A stretch of 64,000 nt of DNA. Origin: Glycocaulis abyssi (GTDB lineage Bacteria; Pseudomonadota; Alphaproteobacteria; Caulobacterales; Maricaulaceae). This document shows, piece after piece, positions 18,913-22,904 of the stretch (positions are counted from its first letter, which is position 1; each line of letters starts with the position of its first letter). The DNA lies in NCBI RefSeq assembly GCF_041429775.1, contig NZ_CP163421.1, forward strand, positions 1,240,001 through 1,304,000, in the 5' to 3' direction. The notes under the pieces are model-generated. The model was given only the letters and a program-made list of their open reading frames with translations. It was not told the DNA's origin and did no database searches. Position numbers and translations under genes: made by a program.

Positions 18913-19563
18913 CTAGCGGCGGCGGCGCGCCACACGCTCGATCTCTTCTTGCACCTTCGCCTCGACGATGGCCGGCAGGTTTTCATCCAGCCATTGCTTG
19001 AGCATCGGGCGCATCAGCTCGCGCACAATGCCTTCAAGCGTCTGACCGTTATCGCTGCTCACGCGTAAATTCTCGGTAAGCGCGGCAAATGCCCCCGCAG
19101 CAGCGCTGGCGGCCGGTTCGGCCAGCAGGCTGTCATCATCTTCAGCCGGTGCCGGGGCAGGTTCAGGTGCTTCAGCCATGACGGGTTCCGGTTCTGGCTC
19201 AGGTTCGGGTTCAGCGGCCGGCGCGGCTTCCTCTTCACGATCAAGGATCATCAGATCATCCGCGATGGCCATCGGCGAGGTGCCCTCGCCCTCTTCCTCA
19301 ACCCGGTCGGTCAGCTCCAGGACATCGTCATCAACGGCGACCTCCTCCGGCTCCGGCTCAGGTTCGGGCTCAGCTGCCGTCTCAAGCACCGGTTCTGCCT
19401 CCGGTTCAGCTTGCGGCTCCGGCGCAGCTTCCGGCTCGGCTGCAGGCTCAGAAGCGGCAGGCGCAGCCTCGGCTTGCGGCTCATCATCCTCGTTGATGAT
19501 ACGCCGGATGGAGGCCAGGATTTCCTCCATGGTCGGTTCTTGTTCTGCGTTGCTCTGGGCCAT
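18913..19563 (-). CDS. popZ: PopZ polar organizing protein (DUF2497)
   Basis: The 216-residue product has the PopZ three-part plan: a short N-terminal partner-binding helix (TMEEILASIRRIINEDD, residues 11-27), a long disordered acidic Pro/Glu/Ala linker (about 28-150, with runs such as EPEPEPEPEE), and a C-terminal oligomerization block (LEGIVRELMRPMLKQWLDEN, about 180-199, to the end). PopZ forms a polymeric polar microdomain that anchors the chromosome origin through ParB and recruits cell-cycle kinases. I chose ATG 19563 (MAQSNAEQEP), where the family begins. It lies downstream of tolC in the same direction. A weak CtrA-like site lies about 116 bp upstream inside tolC's end. Confidence 0.93.
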   Translation of the reverse strand: MAQSNAEQEPTMEEILASIRRIINEDDEPQAEAAPAASEPAAEPEAAPEPQAEPEAEPVLETAAEPEPEPEPEEVAVDDDVLELTDRVEEEGEGTSPMAIADDLMILDREEEAAPAAEPEPEPEPEPVMAEAPEPAPAPAEDDDSLLAEPAASAAAGAFAALTENLRVSSDNGQTLEGIVRELMRPMLKQWLDENLPAIVEAKVQEEIERVARRRR

Positions 19564-19664
19564 GAAACAGGTCCTTCGGATGGTCGCGAGGGGTTGCTTG
19601 ACACTTGGCCAAGCTTGGAATGCCCTCGCCGGGATGTCCAGCACTTGCGTGCGCTGAATAGACC

Positions 19665-21017
19665 CTAATTACCGCCCGTTAAAGGGAAGTTAGGCCAGAA
19701 TCGGGGGTTTTGGCCTGCATCGGCCTCTTCATAGGGCTCCAGACCCAGCTGTGTCCCTGTCAGCCTGCCCATTGCCTGCAGCAATGCGTAGGCCGCGACC
19801 TGATAGTCGCGCTCGGCCCGGACCAGCTCCAGACGGGAATTGAGCAATTCCTGCTCGGCGTTGAGCACATCAAGCGTGGTACGCAGCCCCACAAACGCCT
19901 CCTGGCGCACGCCCTCAAAGGCAATCTCGTTGGCACGCACCGCCTGACGGCTGGAGATAATCACCGCTTCGGCCGCCAGATAGCTGTTCCAGGCATTGGA
20001 AATGCCTTCAGCCACCGCGCGGCGCACATTGAGCACCTGCAGGCGCAACTCATCGGCCACGGCCACCGCCTGACGGACCCGCGATTCGTTAAGACCGCCC
20101 GTGAAAATCGGCATGGAAACACGCGCACCGACGGTCACCGAGCCGCGCCCGCGGCCGGTGAAGTCCGATTCGCGCGATTCCGACGCCGAAGCCGACAGCG
20201 CCACATCCGGCCGCAGGGCAGAACGCGCCACGCGGATACCCGCCTGGCTTGCCTGTTCATTGAACAAGGCCGAGAGAAGCAGCGGATTGTTTTCCAGCGC
20301 CACATCGGCGGCAATCGCCAGCGATTCTGGAACATCGGGCTGGCTTTCGGGCTGCTCGACATCCAGCGGCGCGATGCCTGTCACCCGTTCATAGCCTGCC
20401 CGTGAGGCGGCCAGAGTCGCCTGCGCGGCGGAGAGCTGGGCCTGTGCGCCCGATACACGCGCCTCGGCCTGCGCCACATCGGTGCGGGTGATTTCACCCA
20501 CTTCGAAACGGTCACGCGCGGCGCGCAACTGCTCGGCCAGCACGTCCACATTATTGCGGCGGATATCAACGATTGCGGTGTCCCGGACGACATCGAGATG
20601 CGCGGCAATCGCCGACAGCATGACTTCCTGCTCGGTGCCGACAACATTCCACCGGCTGGCCTCGATCCGGTTCAGGGCCTGATCCACCGAGGCATCTATG
20701 CCGCCGCCGGAATAAAGGCTCTGGCTGGCACTCAGCGAGTAGCTGACATCGCCGCCACTACCCCCGGCACCGGCTCCCGGCCCCCAGCTCTCGCCATCGG
20801 AAATGCCGGCACTGGCCGACAGGCTGGGCAAGCGCGCCGAGCGGGCCTGCACCACACCTTCACTGGCCTGACGCAAGCGCGCGCGCTCTGCGGCCAGTAC
20901 AGGACTGGTCCGATAGGCAGCTTCAAGCGTTTCGTTGAGCGTCTGGGCGTTCGCACCGGCAGCCAGACCGCCCAGCCCCAGCCCGGCGGCCAGCATCAAG
21001 GTAATTGGAAATTTCAT
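19665..21017 (-). CDS. tolC: TolC family outer membrane efflux/secretion channel
   Basis: The 450-residue precursor has a signal peptide (cleavage after ANA near residue 24) and two OEP repeats with the alternating helical pattern of TolC: TLNETLEAAYRTSPVLAAERARLRQA at the N-terminus, DTAIVDIRRNNVDVLAEQLRAARDRFEVGEITRTDVAQAEAR in the first half and VRQEAFVGLRTTLDVLNAEQELLNSRLELVRAERD in the second. It forms the trimeric outer-membrane duct for type I secretion and efflux. No inner-membrane partner is in the window. In Caulobacter the equivalent gene also follows pcm. Confidence 0.92.
   Translation of the reverse strand: MKFPITLMLAAGLGLGGLAAGANAQTLNETLEAAYRTSPVLAAERARLRQASEGVVQARSARLPSLSASAGISDGESWGPGAGAGGSGGDVSYSLSASQSLYSGGGIDASVDQALNRIEASRWNVVGTEQEVMLSAIAAHLDVVRDTAIVDIRRNNVDVLAEQLRAARDRFEVGEITRTDVAQAEARVSGAQAQLSAAQATLAASRAGYERVTGIAPLDVEQPESQPDVPESLAIAADVALENNPLLLSALFNEQASQAGIRVARSALRPDVALSASASESRESDFTGRGRGSVTVGARVSMPIFTGGLNESRVRQAVAVADELRLQVLNVRRAVAEGISNAWNSYLAAEAVIISSRQAVRANEIAFEGVRQEAFVGLRTTLDVLNAEQELLNSRLELVRAERDYQVAAYALLQAMGRLTGTQLGLEPYEEADAGQNPRFWPNFPLTGGN
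19679..19693. promoter_or_regulatory. CtrA-like site upstream of popZ (weak)
   Basis: TTAA at 19679-19682, seven bases, TTAG at 19690-19693. It is one mismatch from the CtrA consensus, inside the last codons of tolC and about 116 bp before the popZ start. It could be chance. Confidence 0.2.
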
Positions 21018-21106
21018 GCGTCCCTCTCACGGTTCACGACCACCCCGGCCCCGTTTACATGGGCGCTAAGCCCTGAAATTCCATCCCCGCGCAACGATTG
21101 CCAAGC

Positions 21107-21131
21107 AAAAAGTGAACAGTGTTCACTTTTT
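21107..21131 (-). terminator. 25-bp near-perfect palindrome after pcm (terminator or operator)
   Basis: Twelve-base arms AAAAAGTGAACA and TGTTCACTTTTT flank one central base, starting 2 bp past the pcm stop. Read on the minus strand it makes a GTGAAC/GTTCAC hairpin with flanking A and T runs, so it can act as a bidirectional terminator. The same dyad (GTGAACANTGTTCAC) also looks like an operator for a TetR-type repressor of the downstream tolC gene. Confidence 0.55.
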
Positions 21132-21133
21132 TA

Positions 21134-21787
21134 TCACAGCGAGAATTCAGGCTCGCGTTCAAAGCCGGGCAGAACCGATGTCATCGAGTCGAACACAGCC
21201 CGGCTGCCAACAACCCCGTCCTTGCGCGTGTAAATCTTTGCCCGGCCAACACCGTTTTCCCGCACGATCACGGCCAGGCGGCCATTCTCTGCAAGCTGTG
21301 ACAACCAGGCGTCCGGCACAATTTCAACAGCACCATTCACCAGTATAACGTCGAACGGGCCCTGTTCCGGCGCTCCTTTTTTCACATCGCCGGTCACAAT
21401 CACGGCATTATCCGCGCCGACATCGCTAAGGGCACCTTCAGCCTTGGACGCAAACGATTCACTGGACTCAATGCCGATCACCGTTTCGCACAGGCGCGAC
21501 AGGATAGCGGTGGAGTAGCCCCGCCCGCAGGCGAGATCGAGCACAAGATCACCGGCCTTCACGCCGGCCGCCTGCACCAGCTTGGCAAAGTCGCGCGGAC
21601 GCATGAAACGCCGCCCCTCGCCCAGATCAATCTCCATGTCGGCATAGGCCGATCCGGCCATTGAACGGGGCAGGAAGCGCTCGCGCGGGATAGCCAGCAT
21701 CGCGTCCTGCAGGCGTCTATCGGTCACATCTGCGGGGCGGACCTGGCTGGCAACCATTTGCCGGCGCGCTTCAGCAAGCTCACTCAT
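21134..21787 (-). CDS. pcm: Protein-L-isoaspartate O-methyltransferase family
   Basis: The 217-residue SAM-dependent enzyme has the PCMT signature: SQVRPADVTDRRLQDAMLAIPRERFLP at the N-terminus, the SAM motif VLDLACGRGYSTAILSRL (about residues 82-99, DLACGRG), and GPFDVILVNGAVEIVPDAWLSQL near 145. It methylates isoaspartyl residues to start repair of damaged proteins. The usual VLEIGTGSGY is replaced by VLDLACGRGY, a common alphaproteobacterial variant whose repair activity has not been shown generally. It reads toward tolC, separated by the palindrome above. Confidence 0.85.
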   Translation of the reverse strand: MSELAEARRQMVASQVRPADVTDRRLQDAMLAIPRERFLPRSMAGSAYADMEIDLGEGRRFMRPRDFAKLVQAAGVKAGDLVLDLACGRGYSTAILSRLCETVIGIESSESFASKAEGALSDVGADNAVIVTGDVKKGAPEQGPFDVILVNGAVEIVPDAWLSQLAENGRLAVIVRENGVGRAKIYTRKDGVVGSRAVFDSMTSVLPGFEREPEFSL

Positions 21788-22436: not shown

Positions 22437-22571
22437 CGGCTGACCTCCCGAAAGTGTAGTGTTTATGGCGGGCAGGATAGCCCAGCTTGCCTGTCCCGGC
22501 GAGACGCGCGTTAAGCTCCCGGTCAGAGCGGTGAGTCATTTCTCTCACACGTCTCCCAGCGTTAGCGAGAT

Positions 22572-22592
22572 ATTAACCATCGAATCGTTAAT
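22572..22592. promoter_or_regulatory. Dyad ATTAAC-N9-GTTAAT with central GANTC, upstream of sRNA candidate
   Basis: ATTAAC at 22572-22577 and GTTAAT at 22587-22592 form a dyad whose centre contains GAATC (22582-22586), a CcrM methylation site. GAGAT (22567) and ATCTC (22596) extend the symmetry. The left half reads TTAACCAT, reported as a CtrA-associated half-site. GTTAAT could also act as the -10 element. It lies right before the hairpin RNA. Confidence 0.45.
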
Positions 22593-22597
22593 GTGAT

Positions 22598-22671
22598 CTC
22601 GTCTTCTTCATGAAGACACCCCACCATCCACCCATGCCTTTTCGGGAGCCTCACGGCTCCCGATTTTTTTT
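22598..22671 (+). ncRNA. Candidate small RNA (hairpin, C-rich single strand, terminator)
   Basis: About 74 nt with a clear architecture: a 5' hairpin GTCTTC-TTCAT-GAAGAC (22601-22617), a 25-nt unpaired stretch rich in CCACC (22618-22642, including CCACCATCCACCC), and a textbook terminator. No credible protein frame exists here. The C-rich open stretch could pair with G-rich ribosome binding sites, as in several alphaproteobacterial regulatory RNAs. The 338 bp gap between the DUF962 gene and tRNA-Asn otherwise holds nothing I can name. The 5' end is estimated from the promoter-like dyad. Confidence 0.6.
22643..22671 (+). terminator. Rho-independent terminator of the sRNA candidate
   Basis: CGGGAGCC (22643-22650), TCAC loop, GGCTCCCG (22655-22662), then A and eight T (22664-22671). 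It is a perfect 8-bp stem. No protein-coding gene ends nearby on this strand; the closest upstream + strand feature is tRNA-Cys, about 600 bp away. Confidence 0.88.
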
Positions 22672-22774
22672 GTCCGTATTGCGGTGGCTGAAACTTCTGC
22701 CCCAATTAACGGCAAAAGCGCCTTGCGGGACACAACCCGTATTGCTAAAGACCCCACCTCGCTTGCGAGAGTGT

Positions 22775-22850
22775 TCCCCGGTAGCTCAGTTGGTAGAGCA
22801 GCGGACTGTTAATCCGCCTGTCGCTGGTTCGAGCCCGGCCCGGGGAGCCA
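22775..22850 (+). tRNA. tRNA-Asn (GTT)
   Basis: A 76-nt cloverleaf: acceptor TCCCCGG with CCGGGGA, D-arm GCTC...GAGC, anticodon loop CTGTTAA (anticodon GTT), T-arm with GGTTCGAGCC, discriminator G and encoded CCA. Confidence 0.97.
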
Positions 22851-22904
22851 TCGCAGCGAGTGTTTCCAAAAGCCCGTCCAGCCCTGCGTGAAACGCGTAT
22901 CGCG

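Follow-up and report, generated by a model that had tools for sequence, protein, structure and literature searches.

The locus and its predicted transcript

Within the window, that is, the whole stretch of 64,000 nucleotides that was analysed, a free-standing small RNA gene with a length of about 71 nt is predicted upstream of a tRNA-Asn gene on the same strand. The features of the locus are listed below.

21134 to 21787, minus strand: gene of a PCMT-family methyltransferase (PF01135, 9.2e-33)
22562 to 22578, plus strand: CtrA box TTAG-CGAGATA-TTAACC, covering roughly -39 to -23 relative to the predicted start
22582 to 22586, plus strand: GAATC, a GANTC (CcrM-type) site between the CtrA box and the -10
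22589 to 22594, plus strand: predicted -10 hexamer TAATGT, from a signature across homologous promoters
about 22601 to 22671, plus strand: small RNA gene, distant CC0196 ortholog (predicted transcript, start within a few bases)
22601 to 22617, plus strand: 5' hairpin GTCTTC-TTCAT-GAAGAC with the stem GTCTTC/GAAGAC (predicted fold, paired changes in homologs)
22618 to 22633, plus strand: C-rich single strand ACCCCACCATCCACCC, presumed pairing region (predicted unpaired)
22642 to 22671, plus strand: intrinsic terminator with a 9-pair stem (22642-22663), a 4-nt loop and eight T
22775 to 22850, plus strand: tRNA-Asn (GUU), conserved downstream neighbour

The original prediction, made from the letters alone, described a free-standing small RNA gene with a 5' hairpin, a C-rich single strand and a strong terminator, and this architecture is present. 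The 74-nt stretch folds at -26.6 kcal/mol, compared with -9.9 +/- 2.1 for 200 shuffled versions, none of which was as low (z -7.9), and the single strand between the hairpin and the terminator reads ACCCCACCATCCACCCATGCCTTT. A promoter of its own, a terminator and an exposed pairing region, the features by which a base-pairing sRNA may be recognised, are all found in the sequence and the predicted fold.

The gene neighbourhood is also conserved. In 149 of the 156 homologous loci with enough sequence, the first tRNA gene after the RNA is a tRNA-Asn of the same orientation; in one of the remaining seven the tRNA-Asn has the opposite orientation, and six lack one within 700 nt. This near-universal same-strand pairing of an sRNA gene with tRNA-Asn is a case of tight linkage. 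In 57 of the 126 loci with enough flanking sequence the PCMT gene is no more than 1.5 kb away from the RNA, and in Caulobacter-type genomes the RNA is found between a gene read as GST-like from its translation, tRNA-Asn and PCMT. In the window, genes for a DUF2497 protein, a TolC-type OEP and the PCMT lie in a row on the minus strand (18913-21787); DUF2497 is a family that we take to be that of PopZ. OEP- and PCMT-like genes, as read from their translations, also flank the RNA in a locus of the genus g28 (L200).

Conservation and relation to CC0196

Homologs of the RNA are widespread. A covariance model built from 12 sequences (R1) gave 88 matches in the 94 loci that it was given, and a second model (R2) was rebuilt from these 88 matches. 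On the RNA of the window R2 scores 80.7 bits (E 2e-17), and this is the sole match in the genome at E <= 0.01. At E <= 1e-5, R2 finds the RNA in 231 of the 298 genomes of the order, representing 42 of its 48 genera, and each of these genomes has a single match apart from G499 and G544; at this threshold 67 genomes are without a match, at least two of which (G040 and G525) have weaker R2 matches, and G010 and G052 have none at E <= 0.001. Second matches to the RNA model in G286, G499, G544 and G615 are possible duplicated copies. In a class-wide draw R2 matches 39 of 386 genomes at E <= 0.01, and 19 genomes, spread over eight families, match at E <= 1e-7. A BLAST query of 141 bases finds matches in 27 of 61 genomes at E <= 1e-4, in the genus of the window, many other genera of its family and two other families; at the loose threshold of E <= 1 there is some match in 43 of the 61, many of them probably chance. 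The pattern GTCTTC-N2..9-GAAGACACCCCACCAT occurs in at least 117 stretches of the named genome collection, and the matches listed include Caulobacter, Phenylobacterium, Maricaulis, Oceanicaulis, Hyphobacterium, Hyphomonas, Hirschia, Ponticaulis, Hellea, Robiginitomaculum, Aquidulcibacter, Rhizomicrobium and Parvularculaceae, among others. The same RNA is present in Glycocaulis albus (NZ_BMFS01000014), of the same genus as the window.

The covariance search in relatives that had been proposed as a check thus finds the hairpin and terminator kept. Standard pairs occupy 99.5% of the pair cells across 74 distinct sequences obtained with BLAST or R2, and 11 of the 14 pairs have changes on both sides, with none of 500 shuffles as good on any of five measures, in structure-fitted alignments, a kind of fitting that favours the structure. 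When the alignment is slid as a control, the paired fraction drops to 44-58%. In the same sequences three of the six pairs of the 5' hairpin have changes on both sides, while the terminator is the most variable part and all eight of its modelled pairs changed on both sides. With a MAFFT alignment of 79 homologs, in which the loops and terminators were poorly aligned, RNAalifold found no pairs. The invariance of the hairpin in set A3 comes partly from selection, most of these sequences having been picked by a pattern that contains the hairpin; the loci of set A4 come from BLAST or R2, and R2 was itself trained mostly on pattern-selected loci. The core ACCCCACCA is invariant in 79 of 79 sequences of set A1, most of which were found by a pattern containing ACCCCACCA, and it is one C shorter (ACCCACCAT) in L201, L204, L207, L208 and several other homologs found by the models. 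Conservation and covariation together therefore strongly support a real small RNA gene, with a promoter and terminator of its own as read from the sequence.

The RNA was originally thought to match no named family. This holds for the window, where no Rfam family except tRNA passes its threshold in the 64 kb, but the Caulobacter orthologs belong to a named family, RF01519 (CC0196, gathering cut-off 35 bits). RF01519 has no match in the window at its gathering cut-off and none at E <= 10 in 351 nt, and among the matches listed for genome G000 it reaches at most 19.2 bits, all away from the RNA. It exceeds its cut-off in 8 of 20 homologous loci scanned (95.2 to 41.3 bits), all eight of family f3, and passes in 9 of 39 genomes, again all f3. 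In a scan of 12 named loci holding the RNA it matches four of four from Caulobacter and two of three from Phenylobacterium, and none of the five homologs from Glycocaulis, Maricaulis, Hyphobacterium, Hyphomonas and Rhizomicrobium. The two models meet at the same loci: R2 matches all ten genomes given of genus g28, where RF01519 lies at the RNA in seven of seven loci scanned, and at G070:C1:2969269-2969339, in one of the nine f3 genomes, R2 (69.1 bits) and RF01519 (35.1 bits) coincide, which makes this locus a bridge. The RF01519 model starts inside the 5' hairpin and is without the 5' stem, so that it models the terminator stem only, and it has a shorter core, GCACCCACCAUC. The missing 5' stem helps to explain why RF01519 is confined here to Caulobacteraceae.

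An identification of CC0196 with CCNA_R0004 was considered and dropped. CCNA_R0004 sits between CCNA_00197 and CCNA_00196 (Table 1 of PMC6237742) and is annotated as 'Cell cycle regulated' (Table 1 of PMC5988900), and CCNA_00197 is rplS (PMC8144410). Since the RNA in Caulobacter-type genomes lies instead beside the GST-like gene, tRNA-Asn and PCMT, neither the CCNA_R0004 link nor its expression data are used here. No paper on CC0196 with Caulobacter or RF01519 was found in the literature searched. Pieces of the core sequence turn up in 32 papers, of which the 15 listed belong, by their titles, to other fields. Homology to Caulobacter CC0196 runs through intermediates, the neighbourhood agrees (tRNA downstream, PCMT nearby), and CC0196 in Caulobacter and the RNA of the window appear as the same gene with the same tRNA neighbour. 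From the shared loci, including the G070 bridge, we infer that the RNA of the window is a distant ortholog of CC0196, and by the same sequence comparisons CC0196 shows only a fragment of a family that reaches much further.

A CtrA box in the homologous promoters

CtrA is a master cell-cycle regulator of alphaproteobacteria, and it is encoded in the genome of the window (NF045991, 425.9 bits, cut-off 350), where gcrA is also present. The promoter region had been noted for a GANTC and a TTAACCAT half-site. The former is present (GAATC, 22582-22586); instead of the latter we find a full CtrA box, TTAG-N7-TTAA at 22562-22576, with one mismatch to TTAA-N7-TTAA. Each of the 167 distinct homologous promoters examined has a full TTAA-N7-TTAA box, exact in 113 and with one mismatch in 54; the box begins 38-40 nt 5' of the hairpin in 165 of these pooled promoters, while 1408 GC-matched control windows from the same loci gave no exact box and a one-mismatch box in 1.9%. 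Every one of the 133 distinct upstream regions of the first set has the box with no more than one mismatch, 91 of them exact, and it begins 38-40 bases before the hairpin in 131; shuffles of this set had an exact box in 0.1% and one with a mismatch in 2.8%. Among exact TTAA pairs of the first set, spacings of 4, 5, 6, 8 and 10 are absent and a spacing of 9 occurs in five. Another 38 loci, from model searches, several of which overlap loci of the other promoter sets, have 20 exact and 18 one-mismatch boxes.

Apart from the box, conservation in the promoters is highest for an A at -11 (140 of 167) and a T at -7 (133 of 167), counted from the first base of the hairpin, and a pyrimidine is preferred at -1. 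Because of these -10 marks and the preference at -1, the first base of the hairpin is the likely start of transcription. The RNA therefore probably starts at the predicted 22601 rather than at 22598, where it had been placed; its end at 22671 is retained. The promoter would thus consist of a -10 and a CtrA box over the -35 position. In C. crescentus full CtrA motifs with their 5' base near -35 mark CtrA-activated promoters (PMC4287350), and the geometry of the box here is the same. Such a full box near -35 is what a member of the CtrA regulon should have, and it is found here, in the window with one mismatch. The gene is very probably CtrA-activated, to judge from its promoter sequences.

The suggestion of cell-cycle or CcrM control has gained on the side of CtrA and is weak on that of CcrM. 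Of the 167 promoters, 53 have a GANTC within their last 45 nt, twice as many as in shuffles (mean 24.9), and its presence in just these 53 suggests that control by methylation is a minor or lineage-specific addition. The window also has an ATTAAC/GTTAAT dyad (22572-22592), the right half of which overlaps the predicted -10 and lies outside the promoter pattern common to the 167 homologs; the dyad is probably the one reported at first as a promoter-like site.

The C-rich core and its possible role

A promoter that CtrA probably activates, a 5' end that the hairpin would protect, a near-invariant C-rich strand and a terminator with a U tail point together to a regulator that acts by base-pairing, as SisA and the CCCC loop of CcnA do. 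The RNA would probably regulate by base-pairing through its ACCCCACCAU core, and with moderate confidence we favour the reading as a whole, a CtrA-activated small RNA, orthologous to CC0196, the core of which pairs with mRNAs. CtrA~P would activate the gene, so that the RNA would be made when CtrA is high, in predivisional cells and perhaps in swarmer cells. The 5' hairpin would shield the 5' end, and Hfq may bind the U-rich tail, the tail being the only hint of this. The exposed ACCCCACCAU core would pair with G-rich stretches of mRNAs and lower, or otherwise alter, their translation or stability. By this route the CtrA regulon would gain a conserved post-transcriptional arm.

The more specific proposal that the C-rich stretch pairs with ribosome binding sites found no support in exact complements, in the gcrA and ctrA leaders or in scans of starts within 464 kb, and the target prediction proposed for this stretch gave nothing convincing. 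The exact complement ATGGTGGGGTH occurs at 84 places in 25 genomes, compared with 28 for the pattern read backwards, and at least two of the 84 (in G039 and G040) are the opposite strand of the RNA itself. For 30 of the 84 places the surrounding open reading frames were compared, which yielded two pairwise similarities and no target at a start that these exact 10-mer complements have in common. Compared with the reversed core, the core paired better with nine gcrA leaders, worse with nine and equally with one, in the 19 of 25 loci where a start was found (six were dropped); with the ctrA leader it was no better than shuffled cores (-16.3, shuffled mean -16.7). The start-pairing scan covered about 15% of the genome. 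When 634 starts, chosen loosely, were scanned first, 18 reached -24, compared with a mean of 5.6 and a maximum of 9 for shuffled cores. With 314 non-overlapping open reading frames, a scan of 464 kb, 9 starts reached -22 (shuffled mean 4.9), as did 12 places inside genes (shuffled mean 5.0). Over these 464 kb the core has a modest pairing advantage over shuffled cores, which is seen inside genes as well as at starts and is no greater at the latter; it is therefore not specific to starts.

A core that is near-invariant over several families, yet for which no conserved target was found, may instead bind a protein, which the CACC-rich single strand would titrate or control in its activity without pairing to mRNAs. 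Repeats of CACC would be a fitting site for a single-strand-binding protein, but to our knowledge no protein is known for a CACC motif of this kind, and the RNA has the architecture of a base-pairing sRNA of the kind of SisA (PMC12559287); we regard protein binding as unlikely, if the strongest of the alternatives. Rather less probable is a terminated leader or attenuator of the tRNA-Asn unit that sets CtrA-driven read-through into tRNA-Asn. The tRNA gene does lie just downstream on the same strand in nearly all loci, and a separate tRNA promoter is indistinct in most gaps: the loose pattern YTTGM-N14..20-GCTA fits 34 of 152, and the best sigma-70 score before the tRNA averages 7.5 compared with 6.9 for shuffled gaps. 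Against this, the window has a strong terminator, which the homologs keep as well, the gap of the window reads as holding a promoter-like CTTGCG...GCTAAAG, and the C-rich core would be left without a role.

The layout of weak hairpin, C-rich strand and terminator is shared with aR8/mmgR (SisA-D, RF00519 'suhB'), and RF00519 matches the RNA of the window weakly (16.4 bits), as it does the RNA in G046 and G054. That the RNA is a paralog of aR8/mmgR, its function retained under a changed core, is nevertheless very improbable, and membership in RF00519 fails on three points. The score stays under the gathering cut-off, 41 bits; neither the RNA of the window nor the first 80 nt of any of the 167 homologs contains the UUUCCUCCCU core; and true aR8 genes lie elsewhere in the genomes that have this RNA, as in G054, with an RF00519 copy (64.9 bits) on contig C45 and this RNA on C32. 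In addition, R1 had no match in the four mmgR (RF00519) loci among the 94 that it was given. We give next to no credence to a short protein-coding gene. An open frame of 93 codons (22610-22891) does exist, but it opens in the variable hairpin loop and crosses the terminator and the tRNA gene, and it is unconserved, an ATG within the first 20 nt being found in 9 of 167 homologs. The original view that there is no credible reading frame therefore stands.

The chances are slightly better than even that the RNA is an ancient, nearly fixed part of the CtrA regulon, activated directly by CtrA, in Caulobacterales and some lineages close to them, and that it serves the cell-cycle circuit as a conserved post-transcriptional arm. 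It would have escaped notice until now because Rfam contains just a truncated fragment from Caulobacter. With a box in every homologous promoter examined, it looks to be among the steadiest targets of CtrA. A CtrA-linked sRNA, CcnA, has reportedly been worked out in one species; the orthologs in Caulobacter, a genetically tractable genus, make an order-wide action of CtrA through an sRNA testable there.

Among known sRNAs, aR8/mmgR/SisA-D are close in design and like this RNA have a weak 5' hairpin, a pyrimidine-rich single strand and an intrinsic terminator; they differ in their core, which is UUUCCUCCCU there and ACCCCACCAU here, and in their loci. A short 5' hairpin, an exposed C-rich strand and a U-tailed terminator make up the architecture of base-pairing sRNAs of the SisA type; SisA represses mRNAs and is itself sponged by CrfA (PMC12559287). 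Among the genomes G000-G060, aR8/mmgR exceeds the RF00519 cut-off in all 24 that come from the order's other families and in only 5 of 37 from the family of the window, where this RNA is common; this family may have lost or altered aR8. CcnA (CCNA_R0094) also has a CtrA box in its promoter, and its CCCC loop pairs with GGGG in the ctrA and gcrA leaders (PMC8959179); unlike this RNA it is 182 nt long and lies at the replication origin, and the gcrA and ctrA leaders have no special complementarity to the core described here. GsrN is controlled by SigT, with BLAST hits restricted to Caulobacteraceae according to PMC5869019, but like this RNA it has an exposed C-rich stretch, in its case a loop that serves in target recognition.
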